Positions 5,401-30,802 are shown, counted from the first letter of the stretch. The stretch is DNA of 64,000 nt from Kiritimatiellia bacterium (GCA_026417735.1 JAOACR010000010.1:1-64000); one strand, 5' to 3'. Made by a program: numbers and translations. The notes: generated by a model not told the origin, from the letters alone.

Positions 5401-6194
5401 CGCTCGAAGACGCCATCGTGGTGGCGCATACGCCCGACGCCGGTGACTATCGGCGGCTGACGCTGCGTTCGCCCGCGATCGCCCCGCAGGTGCGCCCCGG
5501 CCAGTTCGTGCACGTGCGCCTGCCCGCCCCCGCCGACGCGCTGCTCCGCCGCCCGTTCAGCGTCTTCCGCACCGACGGCGATCACCTTCAGCTGCTCTAC
5601 AAACCGGTCGGGCGCGGCACCCGAGCGATGACCGAACTGCGGCCCGGCGCGGTCGTCGGCCTGCTGGGGCCGCTCGGCCACGGCTTCCCAACACCCGCGG
5701 CGCAGCATCTGCCGGTGCTGGTCGCCGGCGGCTACGGAATGGCGGCGCTCTACCTGCTGGCCCGCGAGTGCGGGCGCGGCGGTCTGGTCTTCGTCGGCGG
5801 CGCCCGCGCAGTGGACGTACTCTGCGTGCCGGAGTTCGAGGCGCTCGGCTGGACCGTCCGAGTCACCACCGAGGACGGCTCGCTCGGCCTCCGCGGCCTC
5901 GTCACCGACGCGCTCGACCTGTGGCTGCAGACCGAGCGGGACGCGCAGGTGCCGGAGTTTTTCGCGTGCGGCCCCAACGGCATGCTGCGCGCGGTCGGCG
6001 ACCGCGCGATCGCCGGCGGCTGGACCGCGTGGTTGTCCCTCGATCGCTCGATGGGCTGCGGTGTCGGCGCCTGCCTCACCTGCGTACAAAAAGTGCGCGA
6101 CCCTTCCCAGCCCGGGGGCTGGACGTGGGCCCGCGTCTGCCGCGAAGGGCCCGTCTTCGAATGCCGCCAGATCGTCTGGGAGGAGACACCATGA
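5397..6194 (+). CDS. pyrK: Dihydroorotate dehydrogenase B electron-transfer subunit
   Basis: FAD/[2Fe-2S] subunit that lets class 1B PyrD pass electrons to NAD; 265 aa. The N-terminal FAD-binding barrel has RRPFSVFR, and the NAD-binding half has VAGGYGMAALY and FACGPNGML. The C-terminal cluster ligands are Cys221, Cys226, Cys229 and Cys248 (C-x4-C-x2-C-x18-C). The partner pyrD lies one gene downstream, separated by an FkbM methyltransferase. The start overlaps the glycosyltransferase stop by four bases, so the whole run is probably one transcript. Confidence 0.93.
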   Translation: MTLEDAIVVAHTPDAGDYRRLTLRSPAIAPQVRPGQFVHVRLPAPADALLRRPFSVFRTDGDHLQLLYKPVGRGTRAMTELRPGAVVGLLGPLGHGFPTPAAQHLPVLVAGGYGMAALYLLARECGRGGLVFVGGARAVDVLCVPEFEALGWTVRVTTEDGSLGLRGLVTDALDLWLQTERDAQVPEFFACGPNGMLRAVGDRAIAGGWTAWLSLDRSMGCGVGACLTCVQKVRDPSQPGGWTWARVCREGPVFECRQIVWEETP

Positions 6195-6901: not shown

Positions 6902-7845
6902 ACGCCGAGACCTCCCCCTCGCTCGCCGTGCGGCTCGGCCCCCTCACGCTGCGCAATCCGGTGATGGTCGCCTCGGGCACGTTCGGCTACGGCCCCGAGT
7001 ACGCGGAGCTGGTGGACCTCGCCGCGCTCGGCGCGATCGTGGTGAAGGGCATCTGCCTCCAGCCGACCCGCGGCAACCCGCCGCCCCGCACCGTCGAGAC
7101 CCCGTCAGGCCTGATCAACGCGATCGGTCTGCCCGGCCCCGGCGTCGAGGGCTTCCTGCGCGACTATTTGCCGTTTCTCCGCCGCGTGCCGACGCCGGTG
7201 ATCGTGAACGTGTGGGGCCACACCGTCGACGAGTACGGCGAAGTGGTCAGCGCGCTGGACCGCGCAGAGGGCATCCACGCCTACGAAATCAACGTCTCCT
7301 GTCCCAATGTCAAGGAGGGCAGCCGTGCGTTCGGCGTCCACCTCGACATGTTCCGCCGCGTGCTGGACCGCGTCCGCGCCGCCACGCGCCGCCCGGTGAT
7401 CCCGAAGCTGGCGCCCAACGTCAGCGACATCGCCGCGTTCGCGCGCGCCGCCGAGGAGTGCGGCGCGGACGCGATTTCGCTGATCAATTCGATTCCTGCG
7501 ATGGCGGTGGACATCGAAACCCGTCGGCCGATCCTCGGCAACGTGACCGGCGGGCTCACCGGCCCAGCGATTCACCCGATCGCGGTAAAGCTCGTCTGGG
7601 AGGCGGCGCAGGCGGTGCGGATTCCGACGATCGCAATGGGCGGCATCCGCGATGCAGCCGACGCGATCGAGTTCCTGATCGTCGGCGCCAGCGCGGTGGC
7701 GGTGGGTACCGCGAACTTCACCGAGCCCCGCACCGCGCTGAACGTGGTGCAGGGCATCCGCGAGTATCTGGTCCGTCACCGGCTGCGCTCCGTCGCCGAG
7801 CTGACCGGTTCTCTGCGGCTGGAGGGCCCGCCGTGCGGCGTCTGA
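6898..7845 (+). CDS. pyrD: Dihydroorotate dehydrogenase, class 1B catalytic subunit
   Basis: FMN-dependent oxidation of dihydroorotate to orotate in pyrimidine synthesis; 315 aa, cytosolic TIM barrel. The substrate loop is NAIGLPGPG. The catalytic base is Cys135 in INVSCPNVKEG, which marks class 1 and, with PyrK nearby, class 1B. FMN phosphate contacts are in GGLTGPAI, IAMGGI and VGASAVAVGTA. The ATG overlaps the FkbM gene stop. Confidence 0.95.
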   Translation: MNAETSPSLAVRLGPLTLRNPVMVASGTFGYGPEYAELVDLAALGAIVVKGICLQPTRGNPPPRTVETPSGLINAIGLPGPGVEGFLRDYLPFLRRVPTPVIVNVWGHTVDEYGEVVSALDRAEGIHAYEINVSCPNVKEGSRAFGVHLDMFRRVLDRVRAATRRPVIPKLAPNVSDIAAFARAAEECGADAISLINSIPAMAVDIETRRPILGNVTGGLTGPAIHPIAVKLVWEAAQAVRIPTIAMGGIRDAADAIEFLIVGASAVAVGTANFTEPRTALNVVQGIREYLVRHRLRSVAELTGSLRLEGPPCGV

Positions 7846-9407
7846 GCCGGCCGGCCGCGCTGATCGCCGCGGCCGCCGCCTCCGCGGCCTGGATCGCACA
7901 CGTACCGTACCGGCCGGCCTCCCCCGCCCGCGCCGTCCCCTATGGCGCGCGCTGGATCAGCCGCCACCGCGCCCCCGCCGCGCGCTGGCACCAGATCCGC
8001 CGCTCCCCGCTGGCCGATCTGGCCGGCCGGCTCGCCGGCGCCCCCCCACCGGAATGGTCCGAACTGCTCGCCAGCGAGGAGACCGCCGCCTGGGTGCGGC
8101 GGTTCGGCTCGCGCGAGGTGTGGCTGTTCGACCTGCACGATCGCGACCCCTCCACGGTGGGGGCGGCCGCCTGGCTCGGCGGCGCCGCCTGGCGATGGCG
8201 GATCGCACTGCACGCCGGCTGGATCCGTGGCTGGCGACGCTACGCCGATCACCGCGGCCGAACCATCTGGCTCTGGCCCCGCCGGCTCGGCACCAATGGA
8301 CCGTTCCTCTCCATCGCGCTCGAAGAAGGCCTGCTGCTCGCCTGTCTGAGCCCCCGCCCCGCCGACATGACCCGTTTGCTCGATGCCTACGACGGCACCA
8401 CACCGCGCTCCCCCGATTCTGTGCGCCTTCAGGGGCGGCCGGACTCCGACCTGCTGCTCGTTCAGCTCGGCCGCGGCCCCGGCCCCGACCTCATCGAAAT
8501 CAAGCTCGACAGCCTCGACGGAGCGCGGATCCGCGGCACCGCGCACATCGAGGGCTGGGAACTGGCACCGCCGCCTCGAGGCTCACCCGCCGCGTCCGCC
8601 CCTCCCCCGTCGCGACTGGTCGCGGCGCTGCTCGATCACGCCGCCGCCACGCTCATCCTGCCACCCGAAGCTGCGGATCGGTGGTGGCCCGACCGCCCTG
8701 CCGGCTGGCTTTCCGAGCTCCGCGCCCTGCTGCGTTCGGCCACCGGCTCCCCCTGGATTCTCACCCTCCACGATGAACCGCTCGCGGGCCGGCTGCTCGG
8801 GATCCGCGTGCCGGGTGTGATCCTGTCCATGCCGTTGGCCGACCTTCCTGCGTTTGAGCGGCAGCTCGACGAACTCTTCGACCGCTGGAACGCCGCCTCG
8901 CAGTGGGGCCTCATCCGCGGGCCGGCGCCCCGCACGCCACAGCTGCGCGTGATTGAAAGCGCGGGGGGCGGTCCGCTGCGGCGATGGCTAGGCAGCAGCG
9001 GGCTCGCCTACCGCTGGGCGGATGGCTGGCTGACGCTCGCCGGTTCCGCCGAGACGCTGCAGACGTTGCTCGCCGCCGAGTCCGCCGTTGTCGCGGCGCC
9101 CGCGACCGCCCTGCCGGCCGACGGACGCCCCCGCGCCTCCGCACGTGGCGCGGCGCTCGCCTCCACCTTGCGACTGGCGGTCGCCGCCTACGTATTGTAC
9201 CGCGCCGTCTCCGACCCCGAGGGATCCGAGCGCGAACGCGCAGCGCTGCTGGCAGCGATCCCGTCGCTCGACGTGCTCCGCGAACTCGACCGACTGGAGA
9301 TGACGCTGGACACGGAGGATGCGCGATGGCGGATTGAGTTCGCCGCGCTGCTGGCGCCCGGCGAAGCCCCTCGCGCGGCGTCGCCCCCCACCGAGCGCAC
9401 GCCGTGA
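7833..9407 (+). CDS. Unrecognised exported or membrane-anchored protein, about 524 aa
   Basis: I do not recognise the family. The GTG at 7833 follows GGAGGG at ideal spacing and overlaps the last 13 bases of pyrD in another frame. The first 22 residues are basic (VRRLSRP) then an Ala-rich hydrophobic segment, either a signal peptide or an N-terminal anchor. The rest is soluble, rich in Trp, Arg and Leu, with repeated alpha/beta-like stretches (GLAYRWADGWLTLAGSAETL). The general look recalls large exported proteins of unknown function such as DUF3352, but this is only an impression. It is coupled to the next gene by GTGA. Confidence 0.7.
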   Translation: MRRLSRPAALIAAAAASAAWIAHVPYRPASPARAVPYGARWISRHRAPAARWHQIRRSPLADLAGRLAGAPPPEWSELLASEETAAWVRRFGSREVWLFDLHDRDPSTVGAAAWLGGAAWRWRIALHAGWIRGWRRYADHRGRTIWLWPRRLGTNGPFLSIALEEGLLLACLSPRPADMTRLLDAYDGTTPRSPDSVRLQGRPDSDLLLVQLGRGPGPDLIEIKLDSLDGARIRGTAHIEGWELAPPPRGSPAASAPPPSRLVAALLDHAAATLILPPEAADRWWPDRPAGWLSELRALLRSATGSPWILTLHDEPLAGRLLGIRVPGVILSMPLADLPAFERQLDELFDRWNAASQWGLIRGPAPRTPQLRVIESAGGGPLRRWLGSSGLAYRWADGWLTLAGSAETLQTLLAAESAVVAAPATALPADGRPRASARGAALASTLRLAVAAYVLYRAVSDPEGSERERAALLAAIPSLDVLRELDRLEMTLDTEDARWRIEFAALLAPGEAPRAASPPTERTP

Positions 9408-10270
9408 CCGCCCGCCTCCCCTCCCCCAGCCCGCGGCTGTTGGCGCTGGACTCCGACGGCACGGTGTTTCCGAACATGCCGCTCAAGTTTCGGGTGATGC
9501 TCGACACGATCATCGAGCACTACGGCCTGCAGCGCGCCCCAGAGGCGGCGGAGCGCGTCGTCCGTTTCTTCAATCTGGAGAGCCGCTGGCGCGGTGGCCA
9601 CCGGTTCGTGTTGCTCGCGGAAATCTTGGATGCGCTTCGGAACCAGCCCGAGGTCCGCGCCACCGGTATCCAGGTGCCGTCCGCCGCCCCACTGCGCCAG
9701 TACCTCACCGAAGGCGGCGCGCGGTCAAACGAGGCGCTGGCCCGCGCCGCCCGTCGGGATCCCACTGGCGAACTCTCGCGTGCGCTTCGCTGGTCCACCG
9801 AGGTCAGTGCCCGGCTCGCGGCGCTGCCCGCGGTGCCGCCCTTCACGGAGGCGGCGATCGCGCTGCGCGAGCTGCGCGACGACGCGGTCCGGCGCGTCGT
9901 CGTATCGCAGGCGCCGCTGGACCAGATCCGCCGCGAATGGAGCGGCGCGGATCTCGCGCGGTACGTAGATCGCCTGTGGGGCAGCGAGATCGGGCCCAAG
10001 CCCGGGCAGTTGGAGCGGGCGATGCGCGAGTTCGGGGTTCCACCAGAGCGCACGTTGCTTCTCGGCGACTCCGCCGGCGATCTCGAGGCGGCGCGGGTGT
10101 GCGGTGCGCGCTTCTATCCGATTGTGCCGGGGCGGGAGGAAGACTCCTGGCGGCGGTTTCGGGTCGAGATCTGGCCGCTGTGGTTGGCCGGCGGTTACGG
10201 AGAAGCCGAGCAGACCGCCCACGCGCTCGAGCTGGAGCGCGCGCTGCCGTCGCAGCCGAGCTGGCTGTAA
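9404..10270 (+). CDS. HAD-superfamily hydrolase (phosphatase-like)
   Basis: Haloacid dehalogenase-fold phosphohydrolase, 288 aa. Motif I is LALDSDGTVF (nucleophile Asp16, acid/base Asp18), motif II is VVVSQAPL (Ser), motif III Lys is in EIGPKPGQL, and motif IV is LLLGDSAGDLEAA. A helical cap sits between motifs I and II. The spacing fits phosphoglycolate-phosphatase or sugar-phosphatase relatives, but the substrate is not evident. It starts at a GTG overlapping the previous stop and is the last gene of the 3068-10270 run before the repeat array. Confidence 0.82.
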   Translation: MTARLPSPSPRLLALDSDGTVFPNMPLKFRVMLDTIIEHYGLQRAPEAAERVVRFFNLESRWRGGHRFVLLAEILDALRNQPEVRATGIQVPSAAPLRQYLTEGGARSNEALARAARRDPTGELSRALRWSTEVSARLAALPAVPPFTEAAIALRELRDDAVRRVVVSQAPLDQIRREWSGADLARYVDRLWGSEIGPKPGQLERAMREFGVPPERTLLLGDSAGDLEAARVCGARFYPIVPGREEDSWRRFRVEIWPLWLAGGYGEAEQTAHALELERALPSQPSWL

Positions 10271-10304
10271 GAGGTCCCGCAGGTCTTCGCCTGGTACGCT
10301 CTCC

Positions 10305-10740
10305 AAAATCCCTCCGTTCGGCGGCCCGCTGGAGGGGCACGCGCCCGCGTGCCCACCGGAGGATCACGGCCCCTTGGAGGGACGCCTTCCACGGCGTCCC
10401 CAAATCCAATCCGCGACGGCGCGGGTGGAACCGCGCCCTCCAAAATTCCTCCGCTGCGCGGCCGCTGGACGATCACGGCCCCTTGGAGGGACGCCTTCCA
10501 CGGCGTCCCCAAATCCAATCCGTGACGGCGCGCGTGGAACCGCGCCCTCCAAAATTCCTCCGCTGCGCGGCCGCTGGACGATCACGGCCCCTTGGAGGGA
10601 CGCCTTCCACGGCGTCCCCAAATCCAACCCGCGATGGCGCGGGTGGAACCGCGCCCTCCAAACCCCCTCGGTTTCTCGGTCCCGCTGGAGGGGCACGCTC
10701 CCGCGTGCCCGTTTACGGGCAACCGAGAGGTTGCCCTTCC
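10305..10740. repeat. Hairpin-rich tandem repeat array, 109-bp unit
   Basis: Three nearly identical units start at 10362, 10471 and 10580 (exact 109-bp period; the third stops near 10662). A partial unit precedes them. Each unit carries two strong hairpins with 6-nt loops: GGACGCC/GGCGTCC, and GGCGCGG/CCGCGCC. TGGAGG or CCTCCA sits beside the stems. The array is bracketed by near-copies of another hairpin, GGGCACGC/GCGTGCCC (10335-10354 and 10691-10710), then GGGCAACC/GGTTGCCC at 10717-10736. The translations are not protein-like. From 10741 to the ileS stop at 10927 I see no gene. The array lies between convergent genes and could act as a transcription terminator or REP/BIME-like element. 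Confidence 0.85.
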
Positions 10741-10926
10741 GGCGCATGGGCGGTTTACGGTCTTTACGCCTCTGCGGCCAGAAGCGGGCAGCCCCTCTTG
10801 GTCTCGCGCGGCGTGCGACACTTTGCCAAGGCACGACCGCACGGGTGAGCGCGGGACGGGGGGCTGGGGCAAGGTTCGCGCATGCCCGGGGCGAAACGCC
10901 GACCACGGGTCGCCCGAACAACCTCC

Positions 10927-13900
10927 TCACGTCTCAACCGGCTCGATCTCGATCCGGCACGGATGGCCGTTGAGCTCATCCTTTCCCGCCCCCTCGACCG
11001 CCGCGCCGGTGTACGCGAGATCCACCGCGAGGGTTTCGGCGCGGATGTAGTCAGCATGGCGCTCCACCGCCTCCCGGATCGCCTCGTCCGCCACAAACCG
11101 CACACGGATGCGCTGCGCAACGTCCAGATCGGCGTCCTTCCGGAGGTTCTGCACGCGGTTCACGAACTCGCGCGCAAGGCCCTCCGCAATCAGCGCGGGC
11201 GTGAGGCGCGTGTCGAGCGCGACCACCCACTCGCCCTCCGCCGCCACCGCCATCCCCTCTCGCGGGATTCGCTCGATCAAAATCTCCTGCGCGCCGAGCT
11301 CCACCGGCCCCTTCGAGGTCTCCACCTGCAGCGTGCCGCCCTGCACGATCTGCTCGATCGTTGCGTCATCGAGGTTTCGCAGCACCTCGGTGATGCGCGG
11401 CAGATCAGGCCCGAGGCGGGGCCCCAGCAGCCGAAAGTTCGGCTTCGCCCGCAGTCGGGCGAGCAGGCGCGTGTCCGTCTCAAACCGCACCGCGTCCACA
11501 TTCAGCTCGTCCGCGATCAGCTCCTGAACCTCCCGGAGCGCCGCCAGGCGCTCCGGATCACCGCCGGCCACGTACATCGCGGCGAGCGGCTGCCGGACCT
11601 TCAGATCGTGCTGCCGCCGGATCTGCCGGCCGAGCGAGACGACCGCCATCGCGTCGTCCATCTGCCGTTCGAGCTTCGGATCGCGCCGCGACCCGTCGCT
11701 GACGGGGTAGTCGCACAGGTGCACGGACTCGGGGAGGTCGTCGGACCGGAGATTGCGCCAGATTGCCTCGCTGATGAACGGGATGAACGGCGCGGCGATG
11801 CGGCTGAAGGTCAGCAGCACCTCGTAGAGCGTCGCGTAGGCAGCGCGCTTGTCGAGATCGTCGCCGGACTTCCAGAAGCGGCGGCGGCTGCGGCGGATGT
11901 ACCAGTTGGTCAGCTCGTCGGTGAACCGCAGGAACGGGCGCACCGCCCCCTGCAGATCATACGCGTCCATCGCGGTGACCACCTCCTGGGTCAGGCGGTC
12001 GAGCGCGCTGAGGATCCAGCGGTCGAGCCGGCTGCGCGGCACCGCGGCGTCGGCGGCGGAGGGGCGCCAACCGTCCACGCGCGCATAGGTGGTGAGGAAC
12101 ACCAGCGCGTTCCAGATCGGAATCAACAGTTCGCGCAGCGCGTGCCGGACGCCCTGCTCCGAAAAGCACAGGTCCTCCGCGTGCACCACCGGCGACGAGA
12201 TCAAATACAGCCGCAGCGCATCCGCGCCGTAGGTGTCCATGATGTAGGACGGGTCCGGATAGTTCTTCAGCCGCTTGCTCATCTTGCGGCCGTCCTCGGC
12301 GAGGATCAGCCCGTTCACGATGACGTTGCGATAGGCGCTGCGGCCGTAGAGCGCGGTGGAGAGCACCAGCAGCGTGTAGAACCAGCCGCGGGTCTGGTCG
12401 AGCCCTTCGGCGATAAACTCGGCGGGGAAGAACCGGTCGAGCTCCTCCGCTCGTTCAAACGGGTAGTGCTGCTGTGCCCAGGGCATCGCGCCGGACTCGA
12501 ACCAGCAGTCGAGCACTTCGGGCGTGCGGCGATAGAGCTTGCCGTTGCGCACGAACGTGACCTTGTCCACGTGGTGTTTATGCAGATCGGTCAGGCGCAC
12601 GCCCGAGAGCGCCTCGAGCTCTGCGATCGAGCCGACGCAGATCGCATCGGAGCCGTCCTCCGCGATCCACACCGGGATGCAGGACCCCCAGAAGCGGTTG
12701 CGGCTGATGTTCCAGTCCTTCGCCTCGCGCAGCCAGTTGCCGAAGCGCTTCTCGCCGACCGCGGCGGGCACCCAGTGGACGCCGGCGTTGTTGGCGACCA
12801 GCTGATCGCGCAGGTCCTCCACGCGCACGTACCAGGCCTCGATCGCGCGATAGATCAGCGGCGTGTCGGTGCGCTCGCAGAACGGGTAGCTGTGCACGAT
12901 CGTGCTCTGGTGCACCAGCTTACCCTCGCGCTTGAGCCGGCGAATGATGTCCGCATCGGCGTCCTTGCAGAAGCGCCCTGCGTAGTCCGGCACCGCGGCG
13001 GTGAAGCGGCACTCCGCGTCGAGCACGTCCACCAGCTCGATGCCGGCCGCGCGGCAGACGCGGAAGTCGTCCTCCCCGTAGGCGGGCGCCATGTGGACGA
13101 TGCCGGTGCCCTCATCGGTGGACACAAACGGGTCGGTCAACACCCGGAACGCACCCGGCCGCCCTTCGAACCAGGGGAAGGGCGGCTCGTAGGTCCAGCC
13201 GGCCAGCTCGCGCCCGGGGAAACGGGCGAGCACGCGATACTCGTGCGGCGAGCGGTACACGACATTGAGCCGGCACTCGGCCAGCACGTACACCGCGCCC
13301 TCCTGCCGGTCCAGCACCGCGACGTACTCGATGTCGGGGCCGGCGCAGACGGCGAGGTTGGCGGGCAGCGTCCAGGGCGTGGTGGTCCAAATCAGCAGAT
13401 AGACGGGTGCGCCGTCGGCCTCCGCGGGCGGCGACCAGCCGCTGCGCACACGCAGCCGCACCGTGATCGAGGGGTCCTGCACGTCGCGGTAGTTGCGCCC
13501 CGCCTCGAAGTTCGACAGCGGCGTGGAGAGCTTCCACGAGTAGGGCATGATCCGGTACGAGCGGTAGATGCGGCCGCGGTCCCAGAGCTGCTTGAAGACC
13601 CACCAGACCGTTTCCATGAACGGCAGATCCATCGTCTTGTAGTCGTTGTCGAAATCCACCCAGCGACCCATTCGGGTGACGATCTGCCGCCACTGCGCGG
13701 TGTAGGTGAGCACCATCGAGCGGCAGGTCTCGTTGAACACGTCCACACCGCGCTCGAGGATCTGGCGTGCACCGGAGAGGCCCAGCCGCTCCTGCGCGAG
13801 CGCCTCGATCGGCAGCCCGTGGCAGTCCCAACCGAACCGCCGCTCGACGTAGCGGCCGCGCATCGTGTGGTAGCGCGGCACGATGTCCTTGATCGTGCCG

Positions 13901-26537: not shown

Positions 26538-29500
26538 ATGAACCCGTCCGATGCCGGCGAGCCGATCCGGCCGTTGCCCGCTGCCGCCGCCGCACTCGTG
26601 AGCGCGGCGGGAATGTGGGCGGTCGTCGCCCAGACGGTGCTGTTTCGCGCCTTTTTCGAAACGGTCGAGGGCAGCGAGTTCGGCGTTGCTGCATTCTTCG
26701 CCGCGTGGCTGATGTGGGTCGCGGTCGGCGCGGCGGCGGGCCGCGGGCTGGCGCGCCGGTCGCCGTCGTGGCCCGCGGTCGCGCTCGCCGCGCTCGCCCA
26801 GCTGCCCGCCACGGCGCTGCAGGTTCTCCTCACGCTCAACCTTCGCCCCCTGGCCGGTGTCTCGCCACACGAGCTGTTCCCGATCGTGCGGCTGCTGCCA
26901 CTGGCCTGGGTGGTCAATGCGCCGGTCAGCTTCGTCACCGGATTGGTGTTCACCGCCGCCTGCGGTGTCGCGCGGCTCGGGGGCGGACGCTCCGTCGCGC
27001 GCGTCTACCGGCTCGAGGCGCTCGGCGCGGCGGCCGGTGGCCTGGGCGCGACCCTTGCGCTGAGCGCCGGCTGGGCGGAGGAACGGCTGGCGCTCGCCGG
27101 GATGGCACTGCTGGCGGCAGCCGCCGCGTTCGCCAGCGGGCGCGGTGCGCGTTGCGCTGCGCCGGCGGCGCTGCCGCTGGCCGCGGCGCTCACGGTCGCG
27201 CTGAGGCTCGACCAACAGCTCACCGAGCGGCGCGACCGGTTCGTATGGTCGCGCCTGCTGCCGGTCTCCGCGTTCCGGGGACGCTTCGCCACCGGCCAGG
27301 CCACGTACCGGTTCGGTGAACGGGAGGGGGCGTGGATCGCGCAGTCCCGCGAGTCGATCGTCGAAACCGTCGGCGCCGGCGACCACGCCGCCGCAACCGC
27401 CGCGATCTACCTTTCCACCGTGCCGACCGCTCGCCGCGTGCTGGTGGCCGGTCCGGACACGTACGGGCTGGCGCTCGCGCTGCTGCGCCTGCCGAGCATC
27501 GAGCGCGTCGTCTGGGCGCCTCCCGATCCCGGTTTCGCGCGCGCGTGGCCCGCGCGTCTGCCACCGCACCTGCGGCCGGATCCCGCGCGGATGGTCGCGC
27601 TGGAGGGGGACCTACGCGCATGGCTGGCCGCGACGAAGGAAAGGTTCGACCTCATCGCGATCGAGGCGGGCCCGCCACTGACGCTCGCCGATCACCGGCT
27701 CCTGACCGCAGAGTTCCTCGCGCTGGTCCGCGCGCGGCTGACGGAGGGCGGCGTGGCGGGGCTGCGATTCCCCGGCGGTGCGGCCTACCTGGGGCCCGAG
27801 CTCTCGCGACTGGGCGCGGCGCTCGCAGCGACCGCCGAGGGAGTCTTCCGGCACGTACTCCTGCAGCCCGGCGATGAAAGCCGCTGGTTGATGACCGATC
27901 GGATCTCGGGTTTCGCCCCGCCGCTGCGGCTGGCGCGACTGTACGCGGCGATCCCGGGCGCGGAACGCCTTGCGCCGGCGGATGTCGTCACTGCGGCATT
28001 CCCGCCCGAGCGCGCGGAAGCACAGCTCGCCCGCTACGCGCAATGGCGACGACGCATCGGCGACGACGCGCTCAGGCTGAGCGACGCGCGGCCGGCGGCG
28101 CTGATTCCGGCGCTCGCGCTCGGGCTGCGGCAGGCGGGCCATCCGCGTGCGGCGGCGGTGTGGAGCAGGTCGGTGCGGCCGGCCGCGCTGGCGCTGATTG
28201 CCGCCATGCTGGCCGCCACCGCGCTGCGGCTGGCCGCCCGTCGCCGCGGGCGTGATGCCGCCGCGCCGGTGCCGCTGGGCGAAGCGGCGCTGATGATTGG
28301 GGCGACTGGCGCGGCGGGAATGACGGGCGCGCTCGCCGTGATGCTGGCCTGGCAGACGCACCACGGTAGCCTGTTCCTTCACGTCGGTGCGCTGTCGGCG
28401 CTCTATATGACCGGCGCGTGGGTGGGCGCGTCGGCGGGCGAGCGCATCTGGATGCGCGGCGGTCCAATGCCCTCTCGGCCGCCGCTGTGGCTGGTGCTCG
28501 CGCTGCATCTGGTCCTGCTCGCATCGCTCGGTCGTGCGGAGGGACGGCTGCCGCAGTCGGCGCTGGCCGCTGCCTCCGCTGCGCTCGGCGCACTCGGCGG
28601 CGCATACGTCCCCTTCGCCGCCCGCCGGCTCGCCGGCCGCCTGCCGGAAGTGTCCGCCGGTGCAATCCTCGAGCTGTTCGATCACCTCGGCGGGATGCTC
28701 GGCGCGCTCGTCTCGGGGCTGGTGGTGATCCCGGCGCTGGGGCTGGGCGGTTGGGCCGGGTGGGCCGCCGCGCTGCTCACCGCCGTGCTGCCCGCCTCGC
28801 TCCCCGCGCCACCTGTCCGCCGGCCAGTGGATGACACCGCCGACGTCGTCGCGCGGCGCATCGGTGCGGTCGCCGGCTGGTGGTTCCTCGTCGCGGCGGT
28901 GTTCACGCTCGCATGGCGCGCGGAACCGGGCGGCGACACCGGCGAGGCGCTGGCGGCCGCAGCCCGCGCGCTGCTGCCCGACCGCGAGCTGCGCCCCCAG
29001 ACGTGGAGCACTCCGGACGGCCGCCGCATCCGCGGTTACGTGGCCGGCCCCGCCAGCTCGCCCGAGGCGTGGTGCTTCTCCACCGCGGATGTCGCCGCGA
29101 CGGTGCCTGGCTACGCAGGCCCGATCGAACTGGCGGTCGCGCTCGATCGCGACGGCGCGATCCTCGGCGTGCGCGTGCTCCGGTCCCGCGAAACGCCGCG
29201 CTATTTCGAGCGGCTGCAGCACTGGTGGGGCGCGCTGCGCGGCTGGCGCATCGCGGATCCGGGCGCACCACCACCGGTGGACGCGGTCAGCGGCGCAACG
29301 GTCTCGTCCCGCGCGGTGCTCGACACGCTGCGCGAAGCGGGGCCCCGTTTCGCGGCGGCCGTACAGCTGCGCGGCGCGCACGAAACCGCCGCGAACCGCA
29401 CCGCCCGCATCCCCCACCAGACGCTCACGCTTGCGGCGTTCGCGCTTGGCGCGCTCGTGCTGCGCCGAGCGCCGGCGCGGCGGCATATCCGCATCCTCGC

Positions 29501-30458
29501 GCTCGCGGCGACGGCCGCGGTGCTGGGGCGCTGGCTGAACGTGCAGTTGTCGGTGGCCCACCTGCGGGTCTGGCTGGAGTGGCCCTGGCCGGCACCGGGC
29601 TGGAATCTCGCATGGGTGTTGCCGGTTGCGGTACCGCTGCTGGTCGCGCTCGTCGGCAACGTTTACTGCGGCTGGCTGTGCCCGTTCGGCGCAGTGCAAG
29701 AGCTGGCCGCGGCGCTGCGGCCCCGGCGCTGGCGACCGCCGCCGGCCGCCGCATGGCGGGAGGCGCGGTGGGTGAAATACGCGCTGCTCGGCCTGGCCGC
29801 GACGGCGATGCTGGCGGCGCCGACAGCGCGCCTCGAGGACCTCGACCCGCTCGCGCTCGCGTTTGCGCACGACCTGTCACGGCCTGCCGGCGCGGCGGTG
29901 CTGACGCTGATCGCGATCTCATGGTTCGTACCGCGGTTCTGGTGCCGCGCGCTCTGCCCCACCGGTGCGTGGCTTGCAGCGGTCGCCGCGCTGCGGCCGC
30001 TCGAGCGGTTCTGGCCCGCGGTTCGCCCCCGCGCCTGTGAGTTCGGCGTGCGGGCGCGCACGGATCTGGACTGTCTGGCCTGCGATCGCTGCCGCGACGA
30101 TGCCGCGGAGCTCGTCGCCGCCGCTCCCGTCTCGGTCTGGCGCCGCTGGCTGGGCGCAATGACCGCGATCGCGCTGATGGCGATCGGCGGGGCCGCGCGG
30201 CACCGCCCTGACACATGGACCGCTGCCACGGCGGCGCCGACGGCAGAGGCCGAACATCCCGCGCGCCGCGGTGGCACTGCGCTCGACGAGGACACGTTGC
30301 GCCGGATCCGCGAGCGTCAGCGCGCGGGGCATTTGTCCGACCGAGAAGCGATGTACTATTCCCGGCTGGGGCCGCCCGAAGGCTCCGACACAGCGTCACC
30401 GCCGCGGCCACGGTGGCGGGGCGGCCGTCCGGCCCCGGAGGAACCGACGCCACCATGA
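26538..30458 (+). CDS. Giant membrane fusion: spermidine-synthase-like module + FMN-binding (flavinylated) domain + NosR/NapH-type 4Fe-4S membrane module
   Basis: About 1,306 aa. Residues 1 to about 240 form six membrane helices. About 290-510 is a Rossmann domain like spermidine synthase, but the site that should read DxxDP is FDLIAIEAGPP, so aminopropyl transfer is doubtful. About 540-790 holds seven more helices. About 800-940 is an FMN-binding domain with the flavinylation motif DAVSGATVSS (Thr921 the attachment site). About 950-1160 is a polyferredoxin-type membrane module with CGWLCP (Cys1044, Cys1048) and CRALCP (Cys1136, Cys1140). Cys1179, 1182 and 1185 form a degenerate cytosolic ferredoxin site. 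It probably moves electrons across the membrane. ATG 26526 is an alternative start. It overlaps the next lipoprotein gene (ATGA). Confidence 0.8.
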   Translation: MNPSDAGEPIRPLPAAAAALVSAAGMWAVVAQTVLFRAFFETVEGSEFGVAAFFAAWLMWVAVGAAAGRGLARRSPSWPAVALAALAQLPATALQVLLTLNLRPLAGVSPHELFPIVRLLPLAWVVNAPVSFVTGLVFTAACGVARLGGGRSVARVYRLEALGAAAGGLGATLALSAGWAEERLALAGMALLAAAAAFASGRGARCAAPAALPLAAALTVALRLDQQLTERRDRFVWSRLLPVSAFRGRFATGQATYRFGEREGAWIAQSRESIVETVGAGDHAAATAAIYLSTVPTARRVLVAGPDTYGLALALLRLPSIERVVWAPPDPGFARAWPARLPPHLRPDPARMVALEGDLRAWLAATKERFDLIAIEAGPPLTLADHRLLTAEFLALVRARLTEGGVAGLRFPGGAAYLGPELSRLGAALAATAEGVFRHVLLQPGDESRWLMTDRISGFAPPLRLARLYAAIPGAERLAPADVVTAAFPPERAEAQLARYAQWRRRIGDDALRLSDARPAALIPALALGLRQAGHPRAAAVWSRSVRPAALALIAAMLAATALRLAARRRGRDAAAPVPLGEAALMIGATGAAGMTGALAVMLAWQTHHGSLFLHVGALSALYMTGAWVGASAGERIWMRGGPMPSRPPLWLVLALHLVLLASLGRAEGRLPQSALAAASAALGALGGAYVPFAARRLAGRLPEVSAGAILELFDHLGGMLGALVSGLVVIPALGLGGWAGWAAALLTAVLPASLPAPPVRRPVDDTADVVARRIGAVAGWWFLVAAVFTLAWRAEPGGDTGEALAAAARALLPDRELRPQTWSTPDGRRIRGYVAGPASSPEAWCFSTADVAATVPGYAGPIELAVALDRDGAILGVRVLRSRETPRYFERLQHWWGALRGWRIADPGAPPPVDAVSGATVSSRAVLDTLREAGPRFAAAVQLRGAHETAANRTARIPHQTLTLAAFALGALVLRRAPARRHIRILALAATAAVLGRWLNVQLSVAHLRVWLEWPWPAPGWNLAWVLPVAVPLLVALVGNVYCGWLCPFGAVQELAAALRPRRWRPPPAAAWREARWVKYALLGLAATAMLAAPTARLEDLDPLALAFAHDLSRPAGAAVLTLIAISWFVPRFWCRALCPTGAWLAAVAALRPLERFWPAVRPRACEFGVRARTDLDCLACDRCRDDAAELVAAAPVSVWRRWLGAMTAIALMAIGGAARHRPDTWTAATAAPTAEAEHPARRGGTALDEDTLRRIRERQRAGHLSDREAMYYSRLGPPEGSDTASPPRPRWRGGRPAPEEPTPP

Positions 30459-30802
30459 GACGACACGACTGGCTGGGCGCGATCCTTGTGATCGTTGCGG
30501 CTGGCGGCTGCGAGGCCGACGATGCCCCCCCGCTGCCCGACGGCGGTGCATACATTCGCGGCGTAATCACCGCCGTTGAGCGCGATCGCGTCAGGATTGA
30601 AGAGAATCCGCGCGAGCCTTCCGGCTCGCAGAAGGCGGTGCTGCGGGTCACCGCGCACACCGTGCTGCGCTGGCGCGGGAGCGGCGCACCGGCGACGCTC
30701 GCCGATCTGCGCCCGGGGCGAACGGTCCGCGCTTGGGTCACCGGCCCGGTTGCGGAGTCCTACCCCGTTCAGGGCACCGCCGCGAAGATCGAGATCGAGT
30801 AG
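30455..30802 (+). CDS. Small lipoprotein coupled to the flavin/iron-sulfur fusion protein
   Basis: 115 aa. The signal peptide ends in the lipobox VAAGGC (Cys19). The mature part (IRGVITAVERDRVRIEENP, then VLRVTAHTVLRW) looks like a small OB-type or DUF3221-like beta domain of unknown role. The ATG at 30455 overlaps the stop of the fusion gene by four bases, a strong hint that the products act together, perhaps as an envelope partner of the electron-transfer chain. Convergent with gltA. Confidence 0.72.
   Translation: MRRHDWLGAILVIVAAGGCEADDAPPLPDGGAYIRGVITAVERDRVRIEENPREPSGSQKAVLRVTAHTVLRWRGSGAPATLADLRPGRTVRAWVTGPVAESYPVQGTAAKIEIE

Follow-up and report, generated by a model that had tools for sequence, protein, structure and literature searches.

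A spermidine-synthase-like membrane protein carrying a flavinylation motif and an iron-sulfur module in Kiritimatiellia: a candidate electron-supply component of an exported AmmeMemoRadiSam branch

NapH-like flavinylated systems, including NosR and PceC, were described by Meheust et al. (2021; PMC8238504) and serve many oxidoreductases. The protein studied here, named C0, is encoded on the + strand at positions 26538-30458 of a 64,000-nucleotide stretch of DNA from a Kiritimatiellia bacterium (GCA_026417735.1 JAOACR010000010.1:1-64000; hereafter the window). It shares with these systems an extracytosolic FMN domain followed by a Fer4_5 module with CxxxCP pairs, and the need for ApbE, and it fits their published sequence definition (a PF12801 module plus an extracytosolic FMN-binding domain). 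It differs from them in that the module is fused behind a spermidine-synthase-like protein of about 15 TM helices and in its putative partner, the AmmeMemoRadiSam system; the words radical, SAM, Memo and AMMECR1 and the stem "spermi-" do not occur in the text of PMC8238504. With RnfG/NqrC, C0 shares the fold of the FMN domain and the threonine flavinylation motif, but its score lies below the RnfG cut-off (44.3 vs 102 bits), which rejects an RnfG or Rnf subunit proper, and the domain is part of a far larger protein. NosR and NapH carry two C-terminal cysteine sets, and C0 has one; assignment to NosR/NapH proper was likewise rejected, as C0 remains below the curated cut-offs (NF046105, 58.5 vs 1000 bits; TIGR02163, 35.8 vs 213 bits). 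Spermidine synthases and polyamine aminopropyltransferases (1uir, 3anx) share the fold of residues 245-490, but in C0 this domain lacks the catalytic D-x-x-D, is set between membrane domains and is predicted to lie outside. The linkage of AMMECR1, Memo and a radical-SAM protein is already known (NCBIfam names; PMC7159879), and these three families (TIGR04335, TIGR04336 and TIGR04337) co-occur with C0 in operon or genome. Compared with the other AmmeMemoRadiSam copies in these genomes, which have no export signals, MEMO and AMMECR1 here form one exported protein, and the C0 branch adds a twin-arginine peptide and C0 itself as a putative fourth component. Within the literature that could be searched, the combination of C0 with AmmeMemoRadiSam seems undescribed: no paper was found on spermidine synthase with FMN or flavinylation, or with radical SAM and twin-arginine, and no characterised homologue of the architecture was found in the literature searched, the coverage of which is incomplete. 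The name AmmeMemoRadiSam itself turned up in five papers, once in each.

C0 is a complete open reading frame of 1306 amino acids with zero internal stops (Table 1). The fusion in one polypeptide, as put forward in the preliminary description of the window, was borne out by a survey of domain order across the phylum (241 genomes): the same order in one reading frame was found in 20 genomes, namely 17 of the class (window genome included) together with G187, G149 and G097, added through this survey, the last of them from outside the class. One orthologue is 71% identical over its full length, and relatives show 25% to more than 70% identity to the window protein in each half. The recurrence of an identical order in 20 genomes, including the 71%-identity orthologue, rules out the frameshift or assembly join that the preliminary description had envisaged. 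A genome-wide search for related loci matched a single congener, and no plasmid match was found.

Table 1. Features of C0 and of the adjoining reading frame, in window coordinates.
Feature	Position	Strand	Basis or remark
C0	26538..30458	+	order: 7 TM, SpdSyn-like, ~8 TM, FMN domain, NapH-like Fe-S module, conserved C-terminal tail
N-terminal 7-TM domain, residues 15-221	26580..27200	+	AF2 helices; positive-inside rule gives N-in
SpdSyn-like domain, residues 245-490, predicted extracytoplasmic	27270..28007	+	profile and Foldseek
Degenerate catalytic motif, E376-A-G-P-P380	27663..27677	+	replaces D-x-x-D-P; N-x-P-D in most relatives
Second membrane domain, residues 536-794	28143..28919	+	AF2 helices
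FMN_bind domain, residues 858-934, extracytoplasmic	29109..29339	+	Pfam PF04205, E 2.4e-14
ApbE flavinylation motif, D915-A-V-S-G-A-T921; T921 predicted FMN site	29280..29300	+	conservation and consensus fit
NapH/NosR-like Fe-S membrane module, residues 955-1225	29400..30212	+	Fer4_5; sub-cut-off NosR/NapH matches
First CxxxCP, C1044-GWL-C1048-P	29667..29684	+	motif invariant, 20 sequences
Second CxxxCP, C1136-RAL-C1140-P	29943..29960	+	cysteines invariant, 20 sequences
Cytoplasmic-side cysteines C1167, C1179, C1182, C1185	30036..30092	+	invariant, 20 sequences; enough for one predicted [4Fe-4S] cluster
C-terminal tail motif L-S-x-x-E-A-x-x-Y, residues 1266-1274	30333..30359	+	L, S, A, Y invariant
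Lipoprotein-like ORF, 115 aa, DUF3221	30455..30802	+	DUF3221 match, E 1.2e-6; 4-nt overlap with C0

The spermidine-synthase part of C0 was below detection in a Pfam search, and its fold was recognized by comparison with the PDB. The single sequence matched spermidine synthase (1uir/3anx) at residues 293-410 with an E-value of 3e-8, and a 30-member family profile matched 1uir at residues 245-411 with an E-value of 4.4e-29. C0 was modelled with AlphaFold (AF2) in two halves and without cofactors; the first (residues 1-800) reached a pLDDT of 88 and a pTM of 0.87, while the second was moderate (pLDDT 75). Aminopropyltransferases were the top PDB matches of the first half in Foldseek (1uir, E 4e-9, TM-score 0.60 by target length). 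The AGPP noted in the preliminary description is part of I375-E-A-G-P-P380, at the position of D-x-x-D-P in active enzymes. Profile and model confirm the fold of a polyamine aminopropyltransferase, with E376 and P379 in place of the catalytic aspartates. An active spermidine synthase was rejected on this motif, and the loss of D-x-x-D supports the suggestion made earlier that the fold was recruited for another role. The Rossmann glycine G305, D330 and D371 are nevertheless invariant among 30 relatives; the ribose-binding acid is kept in some relatives and is a proline in the window protein. We infer that the domain may bind a ligand or a partner.

The membrane topology was assessed from hydropathy and charge, averaged over 17 orthologues, and compared with the AF2 helices. 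Both approaches agree on seven N-terminal TM helices (15-43, 47-74, 78-100, 116-148, 152-176, 181-199 and 204-221 in the model) with the N-terminus inside, so that the synthase-like domain is predicted outside. In the second membrane domain (helices 536-570, 580-609, 612-640, 647-667, 673-699, 704-747 and 767-794), the inner loops are rich in K and R and the outer loops are not, and the positive-inside topology places both the synthase-like and the FMN domains outside and the cysteines inside. To have the FMN domain outside as well, however, the segment 704-747 must form a hairpin, as hydropathy suggests it may, whereas the AF2 model draws one long helix; the outer position of the synthase-like domain, as judged from sequence and model, is therefore likely, but not certain. 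That of the FMN domain is secure, because in G227 this domain stands alone as a signal-peptide protein, encoded directly after the synthase-like gene.

Domain search of the C-terminal part confirmed FMN_bind (54 bits, cut-off 22) and Fer4_5 (residues 1027-1068, E 2.2e-12, 47 bits against a cut-off of 22) by Pfam, and Foldseek matched the FMN domain to RnfG (8rb8, E 1e-4). The SGATVSS recognized earlier as a flavinylation motif belongs to D915-A-V-S-G-A-T921, the D, G, A and T of which are kept in at least 94% of 17 orthologues, and fits the consensus D-x-x-[S/T]-G-A-[S/T] (PMC12052999). Both membrane CxxxCP motifs were also found as described, and conserved. ApbE, the absence of which would have refuted the preliminary proposal, is represented by two genes over the cut-off in the window genome and is present in 18 of the 18 genomes with C0. 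The transmembrane electron conduit proposed in the preliminary description is supported as regards a flavinylated FMN/NapH-like path, but not as "self-contained": it has conserved partners, which were not visible from the window because they are encoded on other contigs here.

Related operons indicate which part of C0 is the older. The synthase-like membrane protein occurs with the same C-terminal tail, but without FMN domain or Fe-S module, in G189, G248 and G257, and with the FMN domain but without Fe-S module in G178 and G225. As there are operon members without FMN domain and Fe-S module, the synthase-like protein is the core; the simplest view of the redox modules is that they were added to it. 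The 4-base overlap (ATGA) of C0 with the lipoprotein-like reading frame downstream is real; this frame, however, was found next to C0 in no genomes other than the window's and that of one congener (G001), and the idea that the lipoprotein is a core partner of C0 was abandoned.

Clustering of the genes around C0 orthologues yielded two recurrent families instead, the AmmeMemoRadiSam radical-SAM protein (TIGR04337) and a fusion of MEMO (TIGR04336) with AMMECR1 (TIGR04335); no other neighbour family recurred beyond a few loci. The order radical-SAM gene, small peptide gene, MEMO-AMMECR1 gene and C0 is found, for example, in G056, G029, G033, G017, G187 and G097, with 4-nt overlaps at some junctions. 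The peptide has 52-67 amino acids, a twin-arginine motif, a hydrophobic stretch and a C-terminal W-x-G, and at many loci its gene overlaps the end of the radical-SAM gene by about 10 nt. Radical-SAM, MEMO or AMMECR1 genes lie within 8 kb of 15 of the 24 FMN-bearing C0 loci, against about 0.4 expected on the assumption of roughly four such loci in 3.5 Mb, and no partner is nearby at the other nine. Among 58 genomes, the peptide-bearing radical-SAM protein and FMN-bearing C0 are both present in 17 and both absent in 39 (17/18 vs 1/40; Fisher p=1.6e-12, genome relatedness not removed); the two discordant genomes are 68% (G003) and 87% (G035) complete. In the window genome itself (G000), all three families exceed their cut-offs but are not clustered with C0: the radical-SAM protein and its peptide are on contig C19, MEMO-AMMECR1 with an N-terminal signal on C7, ApbE on C15 and C18, and TatC on C17. 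Because of this scatter, the link to C0 in this genome rests on orthology. A second pair, in which a synthase-like protein overlaps a Tat-signal radical-SAM protein, is present on C12.

The MEMO-AMMECR1 fusions with a readable start have a Sec or lipoprotein signal (e.g., LASVSC, LTSC, LGAC), and a stand-alone MEMO (G056, C12) has none. The twin-arginine signal is borne either by the radical-SAM protein or by the overlapping small protein: 19 related radical-SAM proteins have a Tat signal of their own and in no case the peptide, and those of the C0 operons have the peptide and lack the Tat signal. Four apparent Tat motifs (L116/L081, L083, L120) were discounted because they lie in upstream extensions of the frame, ahead of the true start; the peptide of L120, missed by the profile, was recovered by pattern. 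A tree of 92 radical-SAM proteins places the peptide type in what is essentially a single clade and the Tat type in two or more groups, so that the mutual exclusion of peptide and Tat signal corresponds to few independent events. On these sequence features, it seems simplest to assume that the peptide would carry its radical-SAM protein through Tat.

From these results, C0 on balance probably serves an exported AmmeMemoRadiSam branch as its membrane component and electron supply. That radical-SAM chemistry itself takes place outside the cytoplasmic membrane, with a Tat-exported AmmeMemoRadiSam system, its own transmembrane flavin/Fe-S reductase and an aminopropyltransferase fold turned into an extracytoplasmic binding domain, is a more tentative proposal, plausible but somewhat short of probable. 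From a mechanistic point of view, a cytoplasmic or quinol donor would, if electrons flow outwards, reduce the cluster held by C1167, C1179, C1182 and C1185; by way of the paired CxxxCP site within the membrane, the electrons would then reach FMN on T921 and finally the presumed recipient, the exported radical-SAM enzyme. This enzyme would fold in the cytosol and leave through Tat, by its own signal or by piggy-backing on the twin-arginine peptide. On the outer side, the synthase-like domain would perform no aminopropyl transfer but rather binding or docking, perhaps of a SAM-derived nucleoside, and SAM would need to be available outside the membrane.

The same operon could also be read with the radical-SAM enzyme remaining in the cytosol and modifying the small peptide, which would then be exported as a RiPP-like product or cofactor precursor, to be finished by the outer MEMO-AMMECR1 while C0 supplies or removes electrons there. 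The W and G of the W-x-G motif are indeed invariant in 23 of 23 aligned peptides, the overlap of about 10 nt is usual for precursor-enzyme pairs, and MEMO-AMMECR1 and the FMN domain are outside either way. By contrast, the lack of the peptide where a radical-SAM protein has its own Tat signal points to a signal carrier more than to a substrate, and a variable core region of the kind typical of natural products is absent from the peptide; we regard this account as unlikely.

Rather improbable, in our opinion, is that C0 serves another respiratory or iron-reducing enzyme as a quinol-linked conduit of the NapH/NosR-like type, tied to AmmeMemoRadiSam by a shared regulon only. Its C-terminal part does belong with the NapH-like FMN proteins, which serve many oxidoreductases (PMC8238504), and stand-alone FMN/NapH-like proteins without a synthase domain occur in the phylum, but the operon is conserved in more than one class, its genes overlap, co-occurrence is near-perfect, and no alternative neighbour family recurs beyond a few loci. 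Finally, the invariance of G305 and D330, and the ribose-binding acid retained in some members, would suit a synthase-like part still acting on SAM or decarboxylated SAM (e.g., amino-carboxypropyl or aminopropyl transfer), redox being secondary; the loss of D-x-x-D (E376 and P379 in C0, N-x-P-D in most relatives) and the proline at the ribose position make this very doubtful. Electron supply to an exported AmmeMemoRadiSam branch remains the reading that we prefer for C0.

MEMO and AMMECR1 are distributed from archaea to humans, and to our knowledge the AmmeMemoRadiSam triad has no known reaction. Neither do we know of an earlier case of radical-SAM chemistry outside the cytoplasm, of which the C0 system, if this reading is true, would be the first. 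The operon is small enough for testing in a laboratory strain, and an exported branch with a dedicated conduit, if true, would point to a substrate in the cell envelope and to a need for low-potential electrons there.

The window genome carries a second, paralogous pair on contig C12 (locus L159), in which the genes for a spermidine-synthase-like membrane protein and a radical-SAM protein overlap, the latter protein bearing a clear Tat signal. N-terminal Tat signals were found on many radical-SAM proteins of the TIGR04337 type in the class of the window genome (loci L166, L168, L170-L173, L175, L176, L180, L184, L188, and L196-L199), and some of these loci have no synthase-like gene within reach. 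The small twin-arginine peptides form a conserved family, with a member in the window genome (L112) and without a library model, the member from genome G040 having given no NCBIfam match. The DUF3221 lipoprotein-like ORF was common only to the window genome and one congener.

Coordinates of the features in the window genome (G000)
Feature	Location	Coordinates	Remark
Small twin-arginine peptide	L112 (C19)	about 5894-6064	C-terminal WAG; directly 3' of radical-SAM gene
Synthase-like membrane protein	L159 (C12)	7675-10014	without FMN; paralogous pair
Radical-SAM gene	L159 (C12)	9992-11077	paralogous pair; Tat signal GRRRFAQLLGGGLAGIG
DUF3221 lipoprotein-like ORF	window	30455-30802	4-nt overlap

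FMN plus NapH-like proteins were also observed alone, without the synthase domain (L152-L156, L160, L161, and L164), and AmmeMemoRadiSam genes were absent among the neighbours of these loci.

The C-terminal tail R-D-V-N/D-M...L-S-x-x/K-E-A-x-F-Y was retained by the FMN-less members L147, L149, and L150, in two of which extra transmembrane helices replace the redox modules (FMN domain and NapH-like Fe-S module), which suggests that this tail is a docking element.
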